Shown: in pieces, positions 492 through 48,594 of the stretch
Position numbering within the stretch: the stretch's first letter is position 1
Layout: each line of letters opens with the position of its first letter
Source of the DNA: a virus
Virus record (IMG/VR): IMGVR_UViG_3300025120_000017
Location: 107,835-171,834 of that record
Length of the DNA stretch: 64,000 nt
Direction: 5' to 3' (one strand)
Translations under genes and position numbers: made by a program
The notes under the pieces: generated by a model
Databases searched by the model: none
Told to the model about the DNA's origin: nothing
What the model saw: only the letters and a program-made list of their open reading frames with translations

Positions 492-1475
492 TTATTTAAG
501 TTTAGTTAATAAATCAGACCATAAATCAACTCTTGAAATATCAGGAAAGTTATATCCTGATTTTTTTCCTCTCATATCTTCAACACCGACTTCTTTTTCA
601 AGATGCTTTATAACCATTTTAGTAATATCTTTATCGTTAAAACGTATAATAGGCTTTTCCATTATAGGTGAATAAGGACCTCCATACATATTATATTGAC
701 CTTCTTGAATAGCAAATATTTCTTTACCAAATTTTGTTTTACCTTTTACTTTAAAAGTGTTGCTGCTCCACTCTATATAGCCTTCTAATAGATCCAACTC
801 AGCAGCAATTTGACTAGCTGCATCCTCTTCACTACTGTTATATTCTGCCCAAAGGGATCTATCAATATCATACTCTACGTTAATCTCTGCAGGAATCATT
901 ATTTTATCTCTTAAAACTCCTTCATTAACTGATTCCATTTTACCAGATGATAGGTCTTTAAGATCTTTATTAGCATTATCTATGTTTTTACTTTCTCTTT
1001 TGAATATTCCAATAAATTTCTTAACAACACTTTTTAAACCTTGTATCATTTTAGAAAGAATATTTTCATCGATACTTTCAGATTCATTTGTTCCTATTTC
1101 AAAAGAATGTCCTATATTGGTTATCTTTTTAGAAGCTGCTAAAGATTCTTCTAATATGTTTCTTGTTGCTGAATTAACTTTACCTAAAGCCATTTCAAAC
1201 GCATTCTTATACGAAGCTGAACTTCTCTCATGTGCAAATCTTTTAATCTTTATCAAATAATCATCAGTTTCTGCTAGCTTTTCACCAGTTTCCTGCATTG
1301 AATCCAATAAAGGTGTTATTTGCTTACCATATTCACCAAATTGTTTTTTAGCTTCTTTAAGCTTTGCTGATAGTTGATTAATCTCTTCTTGTAAAAGATA
1401 AAAATCATCCATTGATGCAACAATTGAAGGGTCTTCTATTTTAGATTCTTTTATAAAATTTCGTAAACTTTTCAT
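492..1475 (-). CDS. Candidate capsid-internal protein with N-terminal targeting peptide
   Basis: A 327-residue protein starting MKSLRNFIKE-SK. This opening resembles the T4 capsid-targeting sequence MKTYQEFIAE, with an I-K-E site after residue 10 like those cut by the gp21 prohead protease. Residues about 25-115 are charged and helical, likely coiled coil. A second candidate site (VNE followed by G) lies at 185/186 and would split the protein into a helical N-terminal part and a more globular C-terminal part (186-327). It sits downstream of the baseplate spike gene and apart from the main cluster of such proteins at 41-48 kb. No enzymatic motif is recognised. The targeting role is inferred from sequence likeness only. 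Confidence 0.8.
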   Translation of the reverse strand: MKSLRNFIKESKIEDPSIVASMDDFYLLQEEINQLSAKLKEAKKQFGEYGKQITPLLDSMQETGEKLAETDDYLIKIKRFAHERSSASYKNAFEMALGKVNSATRNILEESLAASKKITNIGHSFEIGTNESESIDENILSKMIQGLKSVVKKFIGIFKRESKNIDNANKDLKDLSSGKMESVNEGVLRDKIMIPAEINVEYDIDRSLWAEYNSSEEDAASQIAAELDLLEGYIEWSSNTFKVKGKTKFGKEIFAIQEGQYNMYGGPYSPIMEKPIIRFNDKDITKMVIKHLEKEVGVEDMRGKKSGYNFPDISRVDLWSDLLTKLK

Positions 1476-15701: not shown

Positions 15702-18700
15702 TCATCCTCTAATTAATCTAATCCAAGTATTATCTGCAACTGCAGTAAACCAATAGTTTCCATTGTAATGTGATTGTCCTTGATAGGTTCCTGTTATTGT
15801 ACTTCCTGTATAATTACCATTAACATCCCAATTAGATGTTGTTTCTAATAATGTTGCTACTGCTCCTGCTGATAGATAGGCTTCAATTATTGGAATTTCT
15901 GAAACTTGTCCAACTCCAGCACTAGTTTTACCTAACATACAGGGCTGAGTAACATCTTGCATTTTATCGTAAGTAACTTTATCAGCTCCAATGGTAACCA
16001 CTCCAGTATTACTTATTGTAGTGTCTCCACTCATTGCTACCGAAGTTGCAGCGTTTGAAGAGTTACCTACAAATATTTGTCCATTATTTAAAGTTGGTGT
16101 TCCACCTCCACCAGCTTCAGATACACCATAACATTCCCATTTACTTGTGTCGGTGCTATATCTAAATCTCGCAGCTACTACATCACCAACTATAGTTGTG
16201 TTTGGAAGGGTTATACCATTAATTCCAGTGTAAATAGCATTCCAAGTAATTGCTCTAGCAGTGCCATCATCATCTAATCGAAACTCAAGTCTTTGTCCAT
16301 TTCTAGGAGTTCCTGTTGGAGCATTTATACCTACTGCACCACCTAGTGCCTGATAATCAACAAAGTCTGTGAAGTCTCCATCCCAACTTGCCGATGTGCC
16401 TGTATTTTCAAAAGTCCTTACAATCTTAGTATAATCTCTAAGATTGTCCATTTCTACCTTTTTCTTATTATTAGAATCAAATATATCCTCAATAAGCATT
16501 ACTTCCCCGCCAACAAGAACTGTCTTCTGTGTGATAGGAGTAATTTCTGAAGCTTTATTGCTATGTATTGCAGTATCAAATTCAGTATAAAAATTTAAGT
16601 ACTTAATAGCACCTTGATTTGCATCATCTCTTATCATTACTTGTGCTGCTGTACTTCCGCTATATAAAGGAAGAGTTTGGGTAAGTGACCATGCTGGGGA
16701 ATCTAATACTACACTAGATTCATTAATTGTAATGCTTGATGTATCACCGCCAGTGCCTCCATAATGTTCAAGTTTTATAGATGCATCTTGTAAACTAATT
16801 TTTCTATGAGATGCATCAGATATTTTAGTTTGTTTCCAAAACGCTGAACCTGTCCCAAAAATATTTGATTGGTCCCATTCTACAGTATGAAATTGGCTAT
16901 TATTTTTAATATTACTTTTATATGCATCAAAATAGTAGTCTTGAGCATATAAGTTTCTTGTAGATGTTCCTTTATTTAATGCATATGGTACTGCAGTTGG
17001 TCCGTTTATCCAACCTGAAAATAATTTAGATCCACTTACAGTAATGCCTGGTGTTCCTGGGTTTGTTGCTCCTGGAGTACCACTATATATTTCTAAGTAT
17101 ACTGGCTTTCCTGTAGATGTAGCGCCTATCTGGTCAGTCTTTGCTCTTGCGCTTGAATCCGTTGCACCTGAGTAACTATCATTAACAACACTTTGCCAAT
17201 CTTGCACAGATCCTGAAGGGCCTGTTGGTCCTGGTACAGTGCTTTGTGCACCTGTATTACCTTGAACTCCTTGAACTCCTTGAATTCCTTGAGATCCTTG
17301 TGGTCCTGTAACTCCTATTAGTCCTGTAGGACCAACTACCGTACTTGCGGCTCCTGTTGGGCCAGCAACACCTTGGGCTCCTGTTGGTCCTATTGGCCCT
17401 TGAGCTCCAGTAGTTCCTATTGTACCTACAGGTCCCTGTGGCCCAGTAGCTCCAATAGCTCCAGGCGTTCCGGCCGATCCTGTCGGTCCTTGTGCACCTG
17501 TTACCCCAGTTCCCAATACGCCAGTTGGCACAATCGTCCAATCAGAATTTGTACCTCCTAAAGAAGATACATAAAAAGGTGTATCTAATGTTATATCCCC
17601 GCTTCCTGGACTATATCCAATAACTTTACAATCTGCAAATTGATTAGGAATGTTGTCATTTATAATTCTAGCAAACTGACCTGGTGCAAATGCTTGACCT
17701 GATGGAAATGAAGTAATAGTAAGAGGGTTAATATCAATTAATCCAAATGATTGTGTACTTCTTATTATTGCGCCTGCGCCTGTTAGCCCTTGTGCACCGT
17801 TAAGACCATTAAATCCAGTTACTCCTGTCGCTCCTTGACTTCCTTGGAGTCCTGAGATTCCTTGAGCTCCTGTAGGTCCAGCAGGACCTACAGGACCACC
17901 GCTTGGTCCTGTTGGGCCAATTGCAGTAGCACCTGTGGCACCTATTGGCCCAGTTACTCCTTGAGGCCCTGTTGGTCCTGGTAAACCAGTACCTGTAATT
18001 ACCCAGCTATTTGATGGGTTGGTATCAGCACCTGGATTTATATAAAAAGGTGCATCAAATTGTAATGCGCCAGTATTGTTATTAAATGAAGATACTCTAC
18101 TTACTTGAAAATCACTAGGTGATAAAGTTTTTGAAATCTGTACATATGAGCCTACCACGAATGCAGTACCATATGAATTGGTTCCAATATTAGGTACTAC
18201 ATTAAGTTGAGATGTACTTCCGTTATTCAATGAAAATAGAGTTGCAGATGTTGCATATAATCCAGGGCCACTAGCACCAGCTGCACCTGTTACTCCTATT
18301 CCTGTAGGTCCTGCTGGTCCTGCTACTGTACTATTTGCACCTGTTGCTCCTGTTACTCCAGTACCTGTAGCTCCTATCGGTCCTGTAGGTCCTATTGGTC
18401 CTGGAACAGTAGATTGAGCTCCTTGAGTTCCTTGAATTCCTTGAATTCCTTGAGCTCCTGTAGGTCCTGCCACTGTACTATTTGCACCTGTTGGTCCTGT
18501 TACTCCAATTCCTGTTGCTCCAACAGGTCCAATATTACCTTGACTACCTGTAGCTCCAGTAGGTCCTGTAACACCAGGAACGCCACTACCACCTACGCCT
18601 ATTTTTGTCCAATCTAATGGATCAAATGTTGCTTTCTGTGTATCGAATTTTGCTATGTAATTGTAGGGTCCTAGTCCATCATCATAAAGAACTACCATAT

Positions 18701-36565: not shown

Positions 36566-37690
36566 TTAATTTACTTTTATATAGATACTTGAGCTTTGTA
36601 TTCTTGATGATGCATGGTTAAAAACCTTTTCAAAGATCTCATCAGATGTTTCTCCTTTATGTGTTTCGAGAATGTCTATAATTAATAGATTATAGTATTG
36701 CGAAAATAATCTATAAGGATCCTTATTTATTTTTGAATAGAACTTATCATATGACCAAGTCTTTTTACAATATTTTATAAAAATATCATAAATCATATTA
36801 ATAAGTTTGTCTATATCAGTTTTCGCTATGCTTGAAATTTCTTTATATCCAGGTAACCCACTTCTATTAGTAAATTCTTCAATAAATGATCTGATTATTG
36901 TCCATCCTACTTTACCGCCTGCTGCGGAACTTCCCATTACTTCTAATGCATATGCAGTAAATTTAGTACTCTCAAAAGTACGTCCTTGCATTTTAACTGG
37001 AGCTTTTTCTTTACCAAACAAATACATATGCTTATTTCCAAAAAATGCATCATCATGGTCTACTTTACCTTCTTTGTATGAAAATCCTGTATAATACATA
37101 GGTGTAATAAAATCATCTACATTAAAAAGTTGTAGCCTAGGTGATTTTATTGATTTAGGTTTCTTTAAACTTATTCCTATAAGCTCTTTACTTTCAAATT
37201 TATCTTTAATCCACTTATTATAACTTTCTATTGAATCAACCGGAACATGCTTAAGGTTTAATGTAGGTGAACTAACCCAAATATCGCCTGGATTCCACTT
37301 ATCATCATTAAGTGCACCCATTCCACTATTTTTTGCGGCTATTCTAGCTTTCATATAAATCGCTTGCATGAACTTATCATTTCTATGATATATTCCATTA
37401 GGTATAGAATATCCTTCATTTAGTAACTTGTTTGCTATTGAAACAATGATGTTTTTCCAATCATCTGAAAGAGATGTAATTATAGGCTTTCTATTTTGTG
37501 ATTTAACAAACATTTTAGCTTGTTTAATCATATCATCATTTATATCACTTACCGTTATTTTAGATTTTTTTATGTTTGATGCAATGGCACATGCATAACA
37601 TTGAGCAAGCTCTGCTATTGTAGCAACATCTTTTCCTCCTCTTACGCTCTTTTTTTCTAATAATTGATAGAATTCAGATAGACTTCTCAC
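36566..37690 (-). CDS. Capsid-targeted candidate protein, possible nuclease fold
   Basis: A 374-residue protein starting at GTG with MRSLSEFYQLLE-KK, so it carries the shared targeting peptide and a candidate L-L-E site after residue 12. The body has NPGDIWVSSPTLNLKHV, then ELIGISLKKPKS. A D-(x)n-G-I-S-L-K arrangement like this recalls the core strands of PD-(D/E)XK nucleases. SAAGGKVGWTIIRSFIEEFTN and a helical C-terminus follow. If it is packaged and injected, a DNA-acting role is attractive, but the nuclease reading is weak. Confidence 0.7.
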   Translation of the reverse strand: MRSLSEFYQLLEKKSVRGGKDVATIAELAQCYACAIASNIKKSKITVSDINDDMIKQAKMFVKSQNRKPIITSLSDDWKNIIVSIANKLLNEGYSIPNGIYHRNDKFMQAIYMKARIAAKNSGMGALNDDKWNPGDIWVSSPTLNLKHVPVDSIESYNKWIKDKFESKELIGISLKKPKSIKSPRLQLFNVDDFITPMYYTGFSYKEGKVDHDDAFFGNKHMYLFGKEKAPVKMQGRTFESTKFTAYALEVMGSSAAGGKVGWTIIRSFIEEFTNRSGLPGYKEISSIAKTDIDKLINMIYDIFIKYCKKTWSYDKFYSKINKDPYRLFSQYYNLLIIDILETHKGETSDEIFEKVFNHASSRIQSSSIYIKVN

Positions 37691-41053: not shown

Positions 41054-41402
41054 AATAAAAATAGGAGATGTCTGGTATGTCAAAGAAGCTAAAGATGATA
41101 TATCTATTAAAAAAGATTTTGCATATAGCCGAAGCATAACATATGAATGTGATAATTTTATGATTGAGGCACATGTACTAGAAGATAACGAAAAATTCAC
41201 TATGCCAACTTTAAAATATGTGGATAAAAAATATCCTGAATGCTCTTGGGTTGCAAGCAACCCAGCATATCTTATAGGAGTTGCAGAGCGAAATCCTAAA
41301 TGGATGACTATTATAAATGCTGAGAGCCCTGAATTAATATCAGCAGTTAAAGAAATAATAGATGAAATGAAAGATTCTGGGTGGCTATCAAATAATACTT
41401 AA
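41043..41402 (+). CDS. Hypothetical protein, 119 aa
   Basis: A mixed alpha/beta protein (MENRIKIGDVWYVKEAKDD) with an aromatic-rich middle. The last gene of the plus island. Its TAA and the TAA of the opposing gene overlap in TTAA at 41399-41402. Not recognised. Confidence 0.6.
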   Translation: MENRIKIGDVWYVKEAKDDISIKKDFAYSRSITYECDNFMIEAHVLEDNEKFTMPTLKYVDKKYPECSWVASNPAYLIGVAERNPKWMTIINAESPELISAVKEIIDEMKDSGWLSNNT

Positions 41403-41629
41403 TTCTTACTCCCAAAGTTTTTAGGATATGGTCCACCGCCTTCAATGATGTCTAGCATATTAGATTCTTTATCTGAAATGTGGACCATTTTTTTATTACC
41501 TCCGCGAGCAATCCAAGTATTTACAAATTTCTTTGCGGACTTATTACTTATATTTTTAAGAAGACCTTTAAGATACTGAACAGATACATTTCTTTCTGAT
41601 TCATTTAAAAACTCTTTATAGCTTTTCAT
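41399..41629 (-). CDS. Small capsid-targeted candidate protein, 76 aa
   Basis: Begins MKSYKEFLNE-SERN, the closest match in the window to T4 MKTYQEFIAE, with an L-N-E site after residue 10. The remaining 66 residues would be the packaged product: a basic, helical KGLLKNISNKSAKKFVNTWI stretch and a Gly-rich end. No enzyme motif. It is the downstream-most gene of the targeting cluster. Confidence 0.75.
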   Translation of the reverse strand: MKSYKEFLNESERNVSVQYLKGLLKNISNKSAKKFVNTWIARGGNKKMVHISDKESNMLDIIEGGGPYPKNFGSKN

Positions 41630-41918
41630 CTTTTATTTCTTTTTTTGATTTGATTTTATTGACAACATCTATAAATTTACCGCCAAACGTATATCCACAA
41701 AATAATAGCATAGCGCTATATAAACCTTGAGATATTAATCTAAGTATCTCTACATTTACATCATATGATTTTGGGCTATATGCTTCAAGAGCCATAAGTA
41801 CGTGAACTGTAAAATAAAAAAACACAGAGCAAAATGTATATACTCTTGCTTGTGAATATTTTTTACTACCATCTTTTTTAGTTTCTTTAAGTATATCACT
41901 TAACATTGTAATTTTCAT
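41616..41918 (-). CDS. Small membrane protein, 100 aa, possible holin
   Basis: Two hydrophobic segments, about 28-47 (YTFCSVFFYFTVHVLMALEA) and about 61-80 (ISQGLYSAMLLFCGYTFGGK), with a charged N-terminus (MLSDILKETKKDGSKK) and a Lys/Glu-rich C-terminal tail. The size and topology suit a class II holin, but no lysin is visible in the window. Its start resembles the targeting peptides only loosely. Confidence 0.6.
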   Translation of the reverse strand: MKITMLSDILKETKKDGSKKYSQARVYTFCSVFFYFTVHVLMALEAYSPKSYDVNVEILRLISQGLYSAMLLFCGYTFGGKFIDVVNKIKSKKEIKDEKL

Positions 41919-41933
41919 CTATATTTACTTATT

Positions 41934-42266
41934 TTATTCTTCGCTATCATAATCAGAATCTTCATCTTCTTCACTATCAGTGCCTTTATCAATATCTTTA
42001 TTTATACGCTCTTTATCAGCATTTGCATCTTTTTTAATAATATCTTCAACATCACCTTCTTCTTCTGATGCTTTTGTATCTAATGCACTTCGTAAGCCAC
42101 TCTTTTCATCCCAAGAGCAATCTATAAATCTCCTACCAAATTTGGATTTAGCCATTTTATCTAATTCTGCTTTTTCTTTAGGATCCATATCACTATATAC
42201 TGATTTGCTGGTTGAAGCATTATAATACATAGAACCTGTCTTGTAATATTCTTTTAATGATTTCAT
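41934..42266 (-). CDS. Capsid-targeted candidate, 110 aa
   Basis: Starts MKSLKEYYKTGSMYYNAS: the shared N-terminal peptide but no clear (I/L)-x-E site. A helical middle (KEKAELDKMAKSKFGRRF) is followed by a very acidic C-terminus rich in Asp/Glu/Ser. The acidic tail may help pack with DNA or other proteins. Not recognised. Confidence 0.65.
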   Translation of the reverse strand: MKSLKEYYKTGSMYYNASTSKSVYSDMDPKEKAELDKMAKSKFGRRFIDCSWDEKSGLRSALDTKASEEEGDVEDIIKKDANADKERINKDIDKGTDSEEDEDSDYDSEE

Positions 42267-42273
42267 TTAAGAT

Positions 42274-42801
42274 TTAAGCTTTTTTTAATTTTTTATCCTC
42301 ACCTCTCTTAATAACTTCTCTTGCCATATCAGCATCTGCCTTACCCCATGTACCATCACCTTTAGTTAAAAATGCGTTAACTCTGGCTAATGCCCATTGT
42401 TCTTGACCTGCACCTTTTCTATGGCTTGAGTTCCATGCTGCTAATCCTCGCCTTGCAACTGCTCTTAATATACCAATATATACACCAGTTTCATCTGACT
42501 TATTTTTAAGAGCTTTTTCCATCTTTTGGCTTTTAAGAGGTCCTTCTGAAATCTGCTCTTTATTATTCTTATCAGATTCTTTTTCTGCTTCATCAACATT
42601 ATCACCATATAAATCATGGTAATTTTTTGTATGTTTACTCTTTTTTACCTTTCCTGATTTTCTAGCAGCTTCATCGCCTGGAGCATCTTTATATGCATCA
42701 GGATTACTATCTGATAATTCATCATTCTTTTTAAAAAAATCAGCTCTCTTTTTACTTACTGATTTTTTCTTTTCATTTAAAAATTCGTTAAGGCTTTTCA
42801 T
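42274..42801 (-). CDS. Capsid-targeted protein with DUF5824-like domain
   Basis: 175 residues from ATG 42801 (an upstream ATG at 42813 adds four residues). The start MKSLNEFLNE-KKKS carries an L-N-E site after residue 10, followed by a charged linker with a possible second site ISE-G. The last 80 residues (ETGVYIGILRAVARRGLAAW, then HRKGAGQEQWALARVNAFL) resemble a domain widespread in marine T4-like phages and called DUF5824. Function unknown. It overlaps the upstream gene by 14 bp. Confidence 0.75.
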   Translation of the reverse strand: MKSLNEFLNEKKKSVSKKRADFFKKNDELSDSNPDAYKDAPGDEAARKSGKVKKSKHTKNYHDLYGDNVDEAEKESDKNNKEQISEGPLKSQKMEKALKNKSDETGVYIGILRAVARRGLAAWNSSHRKGAGQEQWALARVNAFLTKGDGTWGKADADMAREVIKRGEDKKLKKA

Positions 42802-43441
42802 CTTCTTTATCATTTATTTCATAAAAGTATCCTTCGTCAGCAGCCCACTTATGGCCATTTTCACAAAAGAACTCGTGTGTACTAACTTTAAAGTCAGGTT
42901 TTCTTAATTTATTAGGTGTAAGAGATTGGTCATAAAATAAAACTCTGTTATTAGGCTGAGCAGCAAATTGACCATTATCCATTTTTAGTATATTAAATGA
43001 CTTATGCTCATTAGGTGTTTGTGATAAACTAACATTGAGTTCATTTGGATCTGAATGACAACTATCAATAGTAAAAAGATAATATCCTTTATGCCACTCT
43101 TTATCTTTCATATACACTTGGCAATCTATATTTTTTAATATAGTTTTTTCTATAACCGTTATGTTATAACTAAAACAATCCCAGATTTGTAGAAAATCTA
43201 AAGGTAAAAAATCATTTTGATTAACGTCTTTATCCCAAACAAATGCAGATAAAGGTAACTTATCATATAGAGCACCATACTCAGTTAAATATGCTTCTAT
43301 GTATAATGCTTTACCTAATATTGATTTGGCGCTTACCCAATAGCATGGTTCATATTCACCATGACCTTTTTCAAAATCATAAAGATATTCTTTACGTACA
43401 TAACATTGTATTTGTGGTAAATTAGTTACTAAATAGCTCAT
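42788..43441 (-). CDS. Conserved T4-like phage protein, 217 aa
   Basis: A 217-residue protein that resembles a conserved protein of marine T4-like phages: YLVTNLPQIQCYVRKEYL, GALYDKLPLSAFVW, FLQIWDCFSYNITVIEK, YYLFTIDSCH, EHKSFNILKMDNGQFAAQPN and PDFKVSTHEFF. Function is not known; the beta-rich, Trp/Tyr-rich composition suggests a virion or head-linked role. No targeting peptide, although it sits among proteins that have one. Confidence 0.7.
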   Translation of the reverse strand: MSYLVTNLPQIQCYVRKEYLYDFEKGHGEYEPCYWVSAKSILGKALYIEAYLTEYGALYDKLPLSAFVWDKDVNQNDFLPLDFLQIWDCFSYNITVIEKTILKNIDCQVYMKDKEWHKGYYLFTIDSCHSDPNELNVSLSQTPNEHKSFNILKMDNGQFAAQPNNRVLFYDQSLTPNKLRKPDFKVSTHEFFCENGHKWAADEGYFYEINDKEDEKP

Positions 43442-43465
43442 ATTAATTTATTGATTAAGGTTCTT

Positions 43466-44416
43466 TTATATTTTACTACCAACATCTGCATTATCATAAT
43501 CTTTTAAAGTGATTTTCCAATTTCTAACTTGGCCTACAGGAACTCCAAGCTCTTTTGCCTTTTGTCTAACCTCCATCTTAAAGAGCTTAAATATTTTTTT
43601 AACCTGTGCTTCATATTTTCCATCAGGTCCAAATAATTCTTTTGTAGTAGCAGAGACAACTTTATTACTATTTTTCATTCTTTTAGTTTGTCTTATACGT
43701 CTTTCAAAAAGAATTCCTTCATCTAGGTCAACAAACGCATGAACTGTATTATCATCAGGATCATCAGTTACTTTAACTTTAAATCCTCCAATAATAACTT
43801 CTTCACCATTAGAAAGCTTTTCAACATCTCCTAATGTTATTAACATTAGTGGCCAAAAAGTATCACCAAGTTCTTTATGTTCATTAGTTGCCTCTTTCTT
43901 TATTAATTCTAAAAAATAATCTAATGCTCCTTTTCTTCTTTTATCTCTAATCTTTTTATATAAATCTTTAGCAAGCTTTATAGGATTTGCTGCCTTTATT
44001 AACATATCATGTAAATCTGCATGTACTGCCCAAAAGTATTGTTCATCTCTTGTAATGTTTTCAACGATAGATGAATTGCTTCCTAGTGATTTTTTTATAT
44101 TCGATAATGCTCTTTCTTTAATGTATTTTTGATTATCGTTTAATAAACTCTCAATAAGCTTTTCACATGCCTGCCTGAATTGCTCCATATGTTTCTTAGC
44201 TGCATTAATGTCATCTTCCTCAATTGCATCAATTGCCATCATAAGGTGCTCTGCTTCTTTATGATAATTAACATCTACGAAGCTATTATATAATTTCTTA
44301 AGATCTTTATCTCCCATTGATATATCAGAGTTAGTTGCAATTTTAAGCATACCATCATAATCAAAGTTGCTTTTATACTTATCTCCTAATTTGTAAAATT
44401 CATATAATGATTTCAT
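43466..44416 (-). CDS. Capsid-targeted candidate, 316 aa
   Basis: Begins at ATG 44416 with MKSLYEFYKLGDKYK; a longer frame to 44521 overlaps the upstream gene and is not credible. The site after residue 12 is L-G-D rather than x-x-E. The body is helical (about 20-210), then a beta-rich part with GEEVIIGGFKVKVTDDPDD and a basic, helical C-terminus ending VGQVRNWKITLKDYDN. No enzyme motif recognised. Confidence 0.7.
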   Translation of the reverse strand: MKSLYEFYKLGDKYKSNFDYDGMLKIATNSDISMGDKDLKKLYNSFVDVNYHKEAEHLMMAIDAIEEDDINAAKKHMEQFRQACEKLIESLLNDNQKYIKERALSNIKKSLGSNSSIVENITRDEQYFWAVHADLHDMLIKAANPIKLAKDLYKKIRDKRRKGALDYFLELIKKEATNEHKELGDTFWPLMLITLGDVEKLSNGEEVIIGGFKVKVTDDPDDNTVHAFVDLDEGILFERRIRQTKRMKNSNKVVSATTKELFGPDGKYEAQVKKIFKLFKMEVRQKAKELGVPVGQVRNWKITLKDYDNADVGSKI

Positions 44417-44417
44417 A

Positions 44418-44789
44418 TTATGCGTCTTTATATTTGAATGTTCTAGGGTAAAAGCTTTTAGCTTGATATTCTTTAAACTCACCTTCTTTATTAAAGACAG
44501 CATAACCGTCATTTGTAGCAACTAATACAGTTGGCTCAGTATGTAAATTAGAGAAAGCAAGATATTGTTCTGCTTTGGCTGCTGGTGCAAACATTTTTCG
44601 GTTAGCATCCATATATTTCTGTATTTTTTTAACATCAATATAGTCTTTAAGAAGTTTAGCATTCTTTGCTTTCATCTTTTTAACTTTAGCAGATGTGTTT
44701 GGTATTTCGATGATTTCCCACCCTTTAATGTCAACAGCATCTGGTGTAAACTTTTCATCTAATTTATAAAATTTATATAATGATTTCAT
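44418..44789 (-). CDS. Capsid-targeted candidate, 123 aa
   Basis: Starts MKSLYKFYKLDE-KFT with an L-D-E site after residue 12. A basic, helical middle (KVKKMKAKNAKLLKDYIDVK) and a C-terminal strand set with PTVLVATNDGYAVFNKEGEF. Its stop is 2 bp from the ATG of the next gene and it overlaps the upstream stop by one base, so the three are tightly coupled. Confidence 0.7.
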   Translation of the reverse strand: MKSLYKFYKLDEKFTPDAVDIKGWEIIEIPNTSAKVKKMKAKNAKLLKDYIDVKKIQKYMDANRKMFAPAAKAEQYLAFSNLHTEPTVLVATNDGYAVFNKEGEFKEYQAKSFYPRTFKYKDA

Positions 44790-45649
44790 TATCTTGATAT
44801 TTTTTTAATTTTAGAAGAAACTTGTTTAAAATGCTTATCAAATAATTTCTTATATTCTCTGATATAATTAGTTTTATCTAATTTAGCTTCAAGGGATTCG
44901 ATTGAAGTAATTATAGTTGTACCTTCTTCATCATCTTCAATCTCTTCTTCATCAGGATCAAAATCAGTTTCAGTTAAAGATTCTTCACGTCTTTTAGATT
45001 TTTCAGATTTATATTCGTTTTGCCTTTCTTTAGCAATATCTAAATCTTCTTTTATATCATCAAGAATTCTACTCTCAGCTGAAAATAATGATTCAATTGC
45101 AGTTTCAACTATAGTTCTTTTATTTTCTTTTGTATTATCTAAAACATCTCTTATTACTTCATGATTATAATTCTTATCCCAATCATCAAAAGATTCTTCA
45201 TTAATTTTAGATTTAATCGCTTCAATAATATAATCATTTATGGTAGATGTCATTACTTCATCATGGTCATCAAAATACGACTCAATCTCCAACTCCAAGT
45301 TATCAATAACATCTTCAAGCGCTTCAGGGTAATTTTCCTCTTCAACCGTTTCTTTAATCTTTGGCGGCTTTGCATACTTCTTTCCTTCATTTATAGATTC
45401 ATTTACATTCCAAGAAGCTGGTAATAAGTTAACCTTTCCCATTTCTTTAGCTCTTTTGATAACCCATGCTTTTGCACGATCTTTATCTTTAGCTCTTCCG
45501 TAAGCTCTTATTGCATTTTTAAGATCTTCCTTATTTTCAATAGGAAATGAACCATCAGGTAATGCCATTCCTTTATCAGCTAACTCTCTTCGCTGTGCTG
45601 TAGAAAACTTTCGCTCTATTATTTTATAATACTCAAAAAGAGATTTCAT
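44789..45649 (-). CDS. Capsid-targeted protein with DUF6582-like domain
   Basis: A 286-residue protein starting MKSLFEYYKIIE-RKF with an I-I-E site after residue 12. Residues about 17-72 (LADKGMALPDGSFPIENKED, then AIRAYGRAKDKDRAKAWVIK) match a domain common in phage head-related proteins and called DUF6582. Next comes NVNE-SINE-GKKY (81-91) with two further candidate sites, then a long helical, acidic C-terminal half. The sites would release the DUF6582-like domain and a separate tail. Confidence 0.75.
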   Translation of the reverse strand: MKSLFEYYKIIERKFSTAQRRELADKGMALPDGSFPIENKEDLKNAIRAYGRAKDKDRAKAWVIKRAKEMGKVNLLPASWNVNESINEGKKYAKPPKIKETVEEENYPEALEDVIDNLELEIESYFDDHDEVMTSTINDYIIEAIKSKINEESFDDWDKNYNHEVIRDVLDNTKENKRTIVETAIESLFSAESRILDDIKEDLDIAKERQNEYKSEKSKRREESLTETDFDPDEEEIEDDEEGTTIITSIESLEAKLDKTNYIREYKKLFDKHFKQVSSKIKKISR

Positions 45650-45681
45650 AATTACATATATTTTTTCATATCAGCCATCTG

Positions 45682-46884
45682 CTAATTAGATTTATTAACT
45701 GGTTTCATACCTGTTCGGCGTTTAACATATTCCATTATTTCAGTATAAGAAACAGATTCAGGATATTCAGGTTTTCCAGTAGTAGTTAAAGATTTCTTTT
45801 TGAAATCTGCAGTTATTGTAAAGCTTCCTGATGCCGGTGTAATTTTTAAAATATCACCGCTTACTGATGCAGTAAATCTTTTAGGCTTTAAAAATGAACT
45901 AAAATGTTTAGATTCTTTATTTAAGAAATCTCCAAGAGCTGATGGAGATTTATCATGTTTAGATTCATTAACCATTGATTCTTTTAATTTATCATAAAAT
46001 CCAGAATATTCATCAGCGATGTCTTCACCATAATATTTATCCCATAGTTCAGCTATTTCACTTTTAGTAATACCTGCTTTATAATTTTTGCTGATGTCAT
46101 CTATAAAAGATCCATACTCATTAGACATGTCTTCAGCATAAACTTCATCCCACACATTGAAGAGTTCTTTTATTTTATATTTCTTACCTTCATTAACCTT
46201 TGATTCATATGCACTGGTTCTTTTAAGTTTAACATTTTTAAAATATATAGGCAATAAATTATCATAGTCCCATACATCATAATCAATAATTTCACGCTTC
46301 TTTTTATTAATAACTAAGAATGCATTCTTTGTATCATCTCCGTAATCTTCATATCCTGAAACTAAAATATGTTTAGGAGTTTCAGCCATTGGATTTTCTA
46401 TTTGGCTATTATATGCATAAACAAATGTTCCTTTACGTTCATTTCCCCAGTATCTCTGTATTCCAGTGTCATATTCATCTCCGTCACCAAATTCTCTATT
46501 TAAGCCTTTTATATTATTATATCTTTTTTTGGCTTCATTAACATTTGATTCTTTGACTTTAGCATTTTTAAAATATATAGGCAATAATTTATCATAGCCC
46601 CAATGTTGATAATCAATGATATTACCTTTCTTTTTGTTAATGACTATATATACGTTCATTTCATCATCCCCGCCTTGGTCAAATCCTGAAACTAAAATAT
46701 GTTTAGGAGTTTCTGCTATAGGCTCTTCTATTGACCACTTAGACGCATAGATTCCACTATTACCTAGCCGTAATTTACCTGTGTATTCATCTTCATAGTC
46801 AACTTTTATGGTTTTGAGGCCTTCTATATCACTATATCTTTTTTTGGCTTCATTAATTAGTTTATGCTCGTCTAAACTTCTCAT
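45682..46884 (-). CDS. Capsid-targeted polyprotein candidate with four cleavage-like sites
   Basis: A 400-residue protein built of modules. MRSLDEHKLINE-AKKRY opens it, and near-identical junctions recur: VNE-AKKRY at 117/118, VNE-GKKYK at 232/233 and VNE-SKHDK at 307/308. Modules 1 (13-117) and 2 (118-232) are duplicates sharing AETPKHILVSG, VINKKKxxIIDY and LLPIYFKN. Module 3 (233-307) has an internal repeat (WDEVYAEDM... and WDKYYGEDI...). Module 4 (308-400) is distinct, beta-rich and basic. Cutting at the four sites would give fragments of about 105, 115, 75 and 93 residues. This reads as a prohead-protease-processed set of internal proteins; cleavage itself is inference. Confidence 0.8.
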   Translation of the reverse strand: MRSLDEHKLINEAKKRYSDIEGLKTIKVDYEDEYTGKLRLGNSGIYASKWSIEEPIAETPKHILVSGFDQGGDDEMNVYIVINKKKGNIIDYQHWGYDKLLPIYFKNAKVKESNVNEAKKRYNNIKGLNREFGDGDEYDTGIQRYWGNERKGTFVYAYNSQIENPMAETPKHILVSGYEDYGDDTKNAFLVINKKKREIIDYDVWDYDNLLPIYFKNVKLKRTSAYESKVNEGKKYKIKELFNVWDEVYAEDMSNEYGSFIDDISKNYKAGITKSEIAELWDKYYGEDIADEYSGFYDKLKESMVNESKHDKSPSALGDFLNKESKHFSSFLKPKRFTASVSGDILKITPASGSFTITADFKKKSLTTTGKPEYPESVSYTEIMEYVKRRTGMKPVNKSN

Positions 46885-46905
46885 TTTATTTGTTTTGTTT
46901 TGTTT

Positions 46906-47355
46906 TTAATATCTACCACGGTTAGGTCTAAATTTACCAACTTTTCTATCACCTTCTAAGTGTGCAATTAATTCAGCCTCAGTTTCAAAATCAGTATATC
47001 CTAAAGGACTGGAATGATGTAAGATTGTGTATTGACCATTATCATCTATTCTTGCAAACCAATGTTCGTCACCAGCATTTATTGTTAATGTATCTCCTAT
47101 TCTATCTTTATGTTTAGAGACCCGCTTACCTTTAGTTGCTTTACTATTTAAAATATTCTTCATATCCTTAGATTCTAATACCTTAATGTTTCCATTAATA
47201 TATTGTCTAATATCATCTAATTTAGCAATAATTTCAAAAGATTTTGATTTATCTAATCCTGACTTTCTTAATACTTTCTCTACATTATCTATAGATTCAT
47301 GCAAATCAAAGAATTTAGATTCATTAATTTCTTTATGTTCATTTAATGACTTCAT
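46906..47355 (-). CDS. Capsid-targeted candidate, 149 aa
   Basis: Starts MKSLNEHKEINE-SKFF with an I-N-E site after residue 12. The following 50 residues are helical, and a compact beta-rich domain (DTLTINAGDEHWFARIDDNG, then TILHHSSPLGYTDFETE) fills the C-terminal half, with a basic RPNRGRY end. Shares the MKSLNEH start with the 45682-46884 protein and is its upstream neighbour. Confidence 0.7.
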   Translation of the reverse strand: MKSLNEHKEINESKFFDLHESIDNVEKVLRKSGLDKSKSFEIIAKLDDIRQYINGNIKVLESKDMKNILNSKATKGKRVSKHKDRIGDTLTINAGDEHWFARIDDNGQYTILHHSSPLGYTDFETEAELIAHLEGDRKVGKFRPNRGRY

Positions 47356-47378
47356 TTTCTTTATCTATTTTTTTGTAT

Positions 47379-47966
47379 TTAATCAATTTCTTCACTATCT
47401 GTAATATCATCATCTAAATCCTTTAACATATTTTTAGCATTAAGATATGTATTAGGTTTTACTTGATTAACTTCGACATTTTGCGATTGCTGTTCAGAAA
47501 GTGGTAATTCTTGCTTAACTCTTTTAAAATCTTCTTGCATTGAAATTATATGTAGCTGAGTGTTCTTTAATAGTTCTATTATCGTGTTTTGGACACTGGT
47601 TGCAACTTCAAACATTCTTGGCTGCATATTTCCATTATCCATTTCATTAATGAGTTTGTTCATCATATGTTCACTCATTTTCAATTGCTGAAAAAGTGTC
47701 ATTATGTTACTTGTTGCTACTGCGCTCTTTGCTTGTAAGAATTCATTCTTATTAATCATCTTTTCATCAAAATATAGCTTAAGACAACTAATAACTGTTT
47801 TTTGTGCTTTCTTTCTTGCTTTATCTGTAATATCTCCAAGATTTAATGGTGCAACTGTAGTTACTTCAATATCAGGCAACTCATTATCATTACTTGCAAG
47901 ACTTTGGTTTACTAAATCGTCTAAACTATCTTTAAGTTCTTTACCTAAGTCGTTTTTATTACTCAT
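47379..47966 (-). CDS. Terminase small subunit candidate (gp16-like)
   Basis: A 195-residue helical protein. The central part (ARKKAQKTVISCLKLYFDEK, then MNKLINEMDNGNMQPRMFEV and VQNTIIELLKNTQLHIISMQ) resembles the paired helices of T4-type small terminases (gp16), which form a ring that regulates gp17. The N- and C-terminal ends are acidic and polar. It lacks the targeting peptide of its neighbours. It is encoded about 12 kb from terL, on the opposite strand. Assignment is tentative. Confidence 0.45.
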   Translation of the reverse strand: MSNKNDLGKELKDSLDDLVNQSLASNDNELPDIEVTTVAPLNLGDITDKARKKAQKTVISCLKLYFDEKMINKNEFLQAKSAVATSNIMTLFQQLKMSEHMMNKLINEMDNGNMQPRMFEVATSVQNTIIELLKNTQLHIISMQEDFKRVKQELPLSEQQSQNVEVNQVKPNTYLNAKNMLKDLDDDITDSEEID

Positions 47967-48042
47967 AATTTAATATTTGTATATTTAATTTAATTCATAT
48001 CTAGAGATATATTAGATATGTATTAAAGTACTTTTATTCATG

Positions 48043-48594
48043 TTATAATAATTCTATCAATCCTAGCTTAAACGCCTCATTAACAAGCTTTTCTTGATTA
48101 TCTCTAATATCTTTAATATCAGCAGCTGTGATAATTCCGCCTTTCATTGCACTATCGCTTTCATTATAATTAGATTCAGCAGTTCTAAAGAAACTTCCTG
48201 TAAAACTAAGTTCTTCAATATTAGCGGTTTTAAATAATCGCCAAACTTTTTTTGTATTTTTACCTAATGACTTACTATTTCCTTTTAAATGAAATGCTCT
48301 TAGTAGGTTTTCATCATCTGCGTTTTTACCAAGAACCATAGGTTGAATAGTTCTTTTGGTTTTTACACCATCTTTTTCATAAGTCATTTCAAGAATCATT
48401 CCCCATTGTATTGCATCATATAATATCTGTTGATTATATCCAAAGTTTTTACCTACAGGCCAATCTTTAAAAACTCTATGATTAGTGTTTTTTGGTTTAA
48501 ATCTAGGTACAAGTATTTTATCACCTTCATTAGTTTCATATACCTCAAACGCTTCAAGTAATAAATACTCTTTATATTCTTTTAAGCTTTTCAT
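48043..48594 (-). CDS. Capsid-targeted candidate with WYL-like segment
   Basis: A 183-residue protein starting MKSLKEYKEYLLLE-AFEVYE with an L-L-E site after residue 14. The core DAIQWGMILEMTYEKDG, then KRTIQPMVLGKN, LLRAFHLKG, VWRLFKTANIEELSF recalls the strand order of WYL ligand-sensing domains. A second candidate site VNE-A lies 10 residues from the C-terminus (173/174). If packaged, it could act on host factors at infection. The WYL likeness is moderate. Confidence 0.65.
   Translation of the reverse strand: MKSLKEYKEYLLLEAFEVYETNEGDKILVPRFKPKNTNHRVFKDWPVGKNFGYNQQILYDAIQWGMILEMTYEKDGVKTKRTIQPMVLGKNADDENLLRAFHLKGNSKSLGKNTKKVWRLFKTANIEELSFTGSFFRTAESNYNESDSAMKGGIITAADIKDIRDNQEKLVNEAFKLGLIELL

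Follow-up and report, generated by a model that had tools for sequence, protein, structure and literature searches.

Why should proteins that are otherwise unrelated in length and sequence begin with the same short peptide? The question is raised by a stretch of 64,000 nucleotides (the window; bases 107835-171834) from the 171,834-base IMG/VR virus record IMGVR_UViG_3300025120_000017, an uncultured T4-like phage. A sequence-only reading had noticed eleven such proteins in the window and had taken their common N-terminal peptide (the tag) for a capsid targeting sequence (CTS) like that of the T4 internal head proteins. A check of open reading frames (ORFs) placed all eleven on the minus strand, at the positions and with the starts quoted for them (Table 1), and found [IL]-x-E at residue 10, 12 or 14 in nine; the two exceptions were as described, with no site in 41934-42266 and L-G-D in 43466-44416. 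The remainder of the record was taken in stretches, with a simple codon model predicting 180 genes, and the peptide was looked for there as well. This yielded about 16 further tagged genes outside the window (for example, MKNLNEFLNEAS, MRDLNEFINEAK, MKGYREFLNESK, MKSYKSFLNEN and MKSLNEFLNEAK), so the earlier count of eleven was too low. Overall, the genome encodes about 27 tagged proteins, which make up about one gene in seven and about 10% of the DNA. We consider it very likely that they represent a greatly expanded T4-type internal-protein system, with the tag acting as a T4-type CTS.

A common N-terminal peptide

The tag spans 10-14 residues and has the consensus M-K-S-[L/Y]-x-x-[F/Y/H], followed by [L/I]-N-E or similar. 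Across the 27 proteins, residue 4 is L in 19 and Y in 8 and nothing else, and residue 7 is F in 20, Y in 3, H in 2 and I in 2. A [LIVM]xE site is present in 22/27, with the P1 Glu at residue 10 in 15 proteins, 12 in 5 and 14 in 2. Asn occupies P2 in 15 of these 22 sites (background 12.5%, p = 2e-9). These constraints match the mutational map of the T4 CTS, in which residues 4 and 7 serve targeting and residues 8 and 10 serve cutting, and in which Asp at position 10 blocks cutting while targeting is kept (PMC9026906). As T4 propeptides are 10-19 residues long (PMC9026906), the sites at 12 and 14 fall within known variation. The two exceptions in the window also fit the T4 map, considering that 43466-44416 has Asp at P1 and that homologues of both have normal sites. 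Homologous bodies of 41934-42266 in contigs L055, L030 and L093 carry MKNYRTFLTE, and the C-terminal domain of 43466-44416 shows 63-65% identity to 129-aa proteins from related contigs that start with MKSLNEFLYES.

We assessed in several ways if the tag could arise by chance. Starts of the form M[KR]x[LYF]xx[FYHI] were found in 25/180 predicted genes, as compared to 6/887 internal methionines (Fisher p = 3e-15), and 19/25 of these genes had [LIVM]xE in residues 8-14 versus 15/155 of the others (p = 9e-12). Gene starts were set mechanically, but the start pattern was picked after the example tags were known, so less biased tests carry more weight. A T4-type 10-residue pattern gave 12 matches in this genome versus 1 with a reversed control, and 4 in the T4 genome, including the proven ipII and ipIII. 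In addition, at least 120 IMG/VR stretches contain the exact peptide MK[ST]..EF[LIM]NE, whereas none matches a scrambled version of equal composition. Among the 125 matches listed, 119 lie at the N-terminus of an ORF, and 115 of these 119 frames are at least 50 residues long; the N-terminal matches listed fall into 67 unrelated body families. The excess of tags at true N-termini is beyond chance.

Head protease, capsid protein and related phages

A gp21-like protease, which the CTS reading calls for, was sought in the genome and found as a match to Peptidase_S77 (PF03420, E = 1.6e-13) and to phrog_207, 'head maturation protease' (1e-41). Its gene lies between those of the portal (phrog_213) and the gp23-type major capsid protein. 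The nearest relatives of the capsid protein are from an uncultured megaphage (48%), Lak phages, Sphingobacterium phage PAU (33%) and Tenacibaculum, Chryseobacterium and Flavobacterium phages. The PAU capsid protein has 585 residues, of which 520 remain in the mature form as determined by N-terminal sequencing (PMC5646251); its nearest site, A-L-M-E64/N (a slash marks a cut), is one residue off this difference. At the aligned position, the capsid protein of the present phage reads S-L-N-E/N, with the same tripeptide L-N-E as in the tags, from which we infer a protease specificity matching the tag site. Given the fit to the T4 map and the S77 protease, the interpretation proposed from the window is supported in its essentials, and it applies on a larger scale than had been described. 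The protease gene itself (L001:268-1902, minus strand) extends into a long, coiled C-terminal region, in which repeats such as GIENWSEHVTETVS recur, and probably encodes a protease-scaffold fusion.

Phage PAU resembles the present phage in having a related capsid protein, one N-terminal peptide on many proteins and a clustering of these with head genes. It differs in its own dialect of the tag, MK[TS][LI]xxL[YF]E, to which a second LNE is often added at residues 12-14. This dialect has 17 matches in PAU and one in 19 other records (MKRLDKFFE, at 74676 of the present genome). Twelve of the 17 dialect genes (start MKTLxxLYE) lie within 13.5 kb of PAU (JQ362498.1, 100248-113735; p = 1e-11), surrounding the portal, protease, scaffold and capsid genes, and the scaffold gene gp152 is itself tagged. 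Of the five PAU proteins with the annotation 'internal capsid protein', four have the peptide or a close variant.

Tags of the T4 type are also found in other contigs, with 11 in G009 alone (39.7 kb). In G009 and other contigs, several of the cargo bodies have homologues with a tag that had drifted (MKSLNEFLNE to MKSFRHFLKE) or stood on a shortened body. Elsewhere in IMG/VR, tagged cargo includes ADP-ribosyltransferase-like and AAA/zeta-type kinase proteins. Three tagged proteins of uncultured phages (L090:5171-5893, L048:3675-4856 and L077:4170-4844) are ADP-ribosyltransferase-like or Tpt1-like, analogous to T4 Alt, with only the L090 protein passing the Pfam cut-off.

In cyanophage S-SCSM1, mass spectrometry of virions detected a homologue of 36566-37690 together with its NMNAT neighbor (PMC9602691). 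This NMNAT (ORF91) is thus a virion protein, and it has a CTS-like start, MKSFLQFLKEAAES (MKSFLQFLKEA), on which the text consulted does not remark. In Pelagibacter phage HTVC008M, a related cytidylyltransferase is fused to a DUF5824 domain, which is also found in 42274-42801; in the present phage, however, DUF5824 stands alone behind the tag.

Putative internal cleavage sites and the proposed fate of the tagged proteins

Sites resembling the one at the end of the tag also occur within the tagged bodies. We counted 17 [LIV]NE[SAGDN] sites in the 27 bodies versus 1.6 expected (0/500 shuffles reached 17), and 26 versus 13.2 expected in other genes, the capsid protein included. In 45682-46884, internal sites are found at VNE117/, VNE232/ and VNE307/ (P1 codons 46534-46536, 46189-46191 and 45964-45966). 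Its modules 13-117 and 118-232 share 54% identity, and both have AKKRY directly after the NE/ site at their start and VNE/ at their end. A pair of sites, VNE84/SINE88/ (P1 codons 45398-45400 and 45386-45388), comes after the first domain of 44789-45649. Two further tagged proteins (L005:4770-5774 and L005:6529-7143) have in common a block of about 57 residues, 88% identical, which is flanked on both sides by IGE/ or ITE/ and VNE/. Internal sites are often paired as [LIV]xE/SxVNE/[SAG], at the borders of repeated or shared modules, and three sites of this kind are present within a homologue from contig L117.

These observations would fit capsid-targeted polyproteins, each a chain of modules imported by one tag. 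Cutting by the head protease within the prohead, at [LIV]xE/SxVNE/[SAG]-type linkers, would then yield several effectors in mature form, and modules would be exchanged between chains along the cut sites. We regard the chances for and against this model as about evenly balanced. PAU, the IMG/VR set and G009 as a whole showed no excess of internal sites, which limits the polyprotein reading to the present phage and perhaps close relatives (contig L117). In a related contig, a second MKALNEFLNEKK lies inside a 450-aa tagged protein (L055:3741-5093), as would be seen after the fusion of two tagged genes.

If the tag is a CTS, head assembly would proceed with some 27 otherwise unrelated proteins that are made with a common N-terminal propeptide of 10-14 residues. 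The first half of the tag would bind the prohead core, and the S77 protease, fused to its scaffold-like coiled C-terminal part, would cut after Glu and remove the tag, so that the mature protein would stay alongside the DNA in the head. The proteins would most likely be ejected and act in the next host ahead of phage gene expression, as in T4; some tagged proteins may instead be short-lived components of the core. The same protease would cut the polyprotein-like products at internal [LIV]NE/[SAG] linkers into modules. The phage thus probably packs about two dozen different proteins, and perhaps injects them.

The closest precedent is T4, in which unrelated proteins (IPI, IPII, IPIII and Alt) start with MK[T/S][Y/F/L]xxF and have an [IL]xE site cut by the S77 protease gp21, in the same 10-residue register (MKTYQEFIAE versus MKSYKEFLNE). 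T4 differs in having three internal proteins and Alt as compared to about 27 tagged genes, in that its internal proteins are basic, whereas the bodies here are not and have internal cleavage-like sites, and in that most of the nearest capsid proteins here belong to phages of Bacteroidota. In T4, the signal has served to recognize ip genes, of which at least 10 have been reported in T-even relatives (PMC12373910). The DarB protein of phage P1 is also taken into the head by an N-terminal signal, but it is a single, very large cargo, and its signal is not presented as a peptide common to many proteins (PMC9024508). phiKZ and SPN3US have many head or ejection proteins with N-terminal propeptides that are cut by the prohead protease; however, those of SPN3US are 20-254 residues long with an A-x-E site. 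A literature search with the peptides themselves gave no match. The principle is known from T4. To judge by the sources searched, the new elements are how many genes are tagged in a single phage that is not one of the T-even group, how the tag extends with its dialects into other lineages, and the polyprotein-like build of some products.

Several points weigh against the CTS reading. Among the tagged proteins, 5/27 lack [LIVM]xE in residues 8-14. As a group, the bodies show no basic character: their median isoelectric point is 6.7, with 12/27 above 8, the same as in other genes, and this comparison led us to reject the idea of cargo as basic as that of T4. Homologues of 48043-48594 in megaphages and of 36566-37690 in cyanophages have no tag, and since the latter is found in cyanophage virions, the tag is not the sole route. 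In PAU, the 'internal capsid protein' gp70 lacks the peptide, and these labels are database notes. Alternatively, the tagged proteins could form the prohead core or scaffold (like T4 gp22, gp67 and gp68), to be chopped and cleared by the protease. This would agree with the PAU dialect tags on scaffold gp152 and adjoining genes, with a small tagged gene of Chryseobacterium phage MA9V-1 that lies between its capsid assembly and protease genes, and with the enrichment of internal cleavage sites. We nevertheless consider it unlikely, as several internal sites lie at module borders and are not scattered, some cargo is enzyme-like (ATP-grasp-like and acetyltransferase-like proteins in this genome, ADP-ribosyltransferase and AAA/zeta-type kinase elsewhere), and the number of families and their rapid turnover are unlike core genes.

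It is very unlikely that the tag addresses another place, such as a replication compartment or a membrane-bound assembly site, with LxE as part of a docking helix. Tags without a cleavage site would be accounted for, but not the fit to the T4 map, the S77 protease, the L-N-E site of the capsid protein or the clustering with head genes in PAU. The first codons of the tag are A-rich, as expected of a leader that favors initiation, but we give almost no credence to a feature of translation or mRNA in place of a protein signal: amino acids 4, 7, 8 and 10 are constrained while synonymous codons vary (Ser3 is AGT, AGC, TCA or TCT), there is no evident use in initiation for the conserved Glu or the Asn at P2, and the same peptide in T4 is a proven targeting signal. 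Descent from a recent common ancestor, with the tagged genes as paralogues, would explain the 88% identical block in the two L005 proteins. However, all-against-all BLAST of the bodies yielded one real pair (the common module) and one marginal pair, which bears out the earlier description of the bodies as unrelated and led us to reject tandem paralogy. With no clear mutual similarity among the other bodies, and 67 body families among the IMG/VR matches listed, paralogy is extremely improbable.

Proteins that are carried in the head and injected are known for very few phages. If the CTS-like peptide marks them, candidates for injection could be read from sequence in uncultured phages of several lineages (about 27 in this genome and 67 families among the IMG/VR matches listed). 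It might also explain the recurring NMNAT-like enzymes in cyanophage virions, and the internal sites suggest a possible further task for head proteases, the processing of polyproteins after import.

Tagged proteins of the window and their expression

Table 1 Tagged proteins of the window, with the predicted cut in the tag marked by a slash.
Product	Position	Strand	Tag (position)	Remarks
327-aa tagged protein	492..1475	-	MKSLRNFIKE/SK (1446-1475)	ATTAAATA upstream
374-aa tagged protein, phrog_1462	36566..37690	-	MRSLSEFYQLLE/KK (37655-37690)	GTG start; ATTAAATA upstream
76-aa tagged protein	41399..41629	-	MKSYKEFLNE/SE (41600-41629)	T4-type pattern match
110-aa tagged protein	41934..42266	-	MKSLKEYYKT (42237-42266)	Without cleavage site
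175-aa tagged protein, DUF5824	42274..42801	-	MKSLNEFLNE/KK (42772-42801)	
316-aa tagged protein	43466..44416	-	MKSLYEFYKLGD (44381-44416)	P1 is Asp
123-aa tagged protein	44418..44789	-	MKSLYKFYKLDE/KF (44754-44789)	
286-aa tagged protein	44789..45649	-	MKSLFEYYKIIE/RK (45614-45649)	
400-aa tagged, polyprotein-like product	45682..46884	-	MRSLDEHKLINE/AK (46849-46884)	
149-aa tagged protein	46906..47355	-	MKSLNEHKEINE/SK (47320-47355)	ATTAAATA upstream, late-promoter-like
183-aa tagged protein	48043..48594	-	MKSLKEYKEYLLLE/AF (48553-48594)	

Most tagged bodies belong to no known family. Three domain assignments had been made from the window, of which DUF5824 in 42274-42801 was recovered (residues 74-158, Pfam PF19141, 9.8e-12), while DUF6582 in 44789-45649 and WYL in 48043-48594 had no Pfam support, even at E up to 1. 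For 42274-42801, which has tagged homologues in G009 and L030, the start at 42801 sits 4 codons inside a longer open frame; as its homologues begin directly at MKSF, this inner start is supported. The start at 44416 similarly sits 35 codons inside a longer open frame. Residues 13-81 of 44789-45649 match a domain that Gordonia and Microbacterium phages have in their capsid maturation protease genes, and the best matches start at residue 13, the first residue past the predicted cut. The body of 48043-48594 is 35-42% identical to untagged proteins of 300-418 aa from 630-735-kb megaphages and from contig L140.

Other searches added little. Single-sequence structure predictions for 48043-48594 and 36566-37690 had a mean predicted local distance difference test score (pLDDT) of 36 and 38, respectively, and were not used. 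Profiles of three cargo families gave no significant match to solved structures, and PADLOC gave only weak matches, which are probably compositional. A search for related loci with four cargo proteins returned no phage but the present one, in another assembly (IMGVR_UViG_3300001460_000053).

The motif ATTAAATA lies about 25-29 nt upstream of starts 28 times in the whole genome, versus 5.8 expected. It precedes six tagged genes and several large genes, and a weak match to a gp55-like late sigma factor was found at L004:3784-4689. We consider ATTAAATA a candidate late promoter, which is suggestive only of late expression for part of the tagged set. Separately, two adjacent large genes (L006:14997-16526 and 16553-18214) have an identical N-terminus, MGKIIVLKGTGSILADRESINKNFKHLH, and are probably duplicated.

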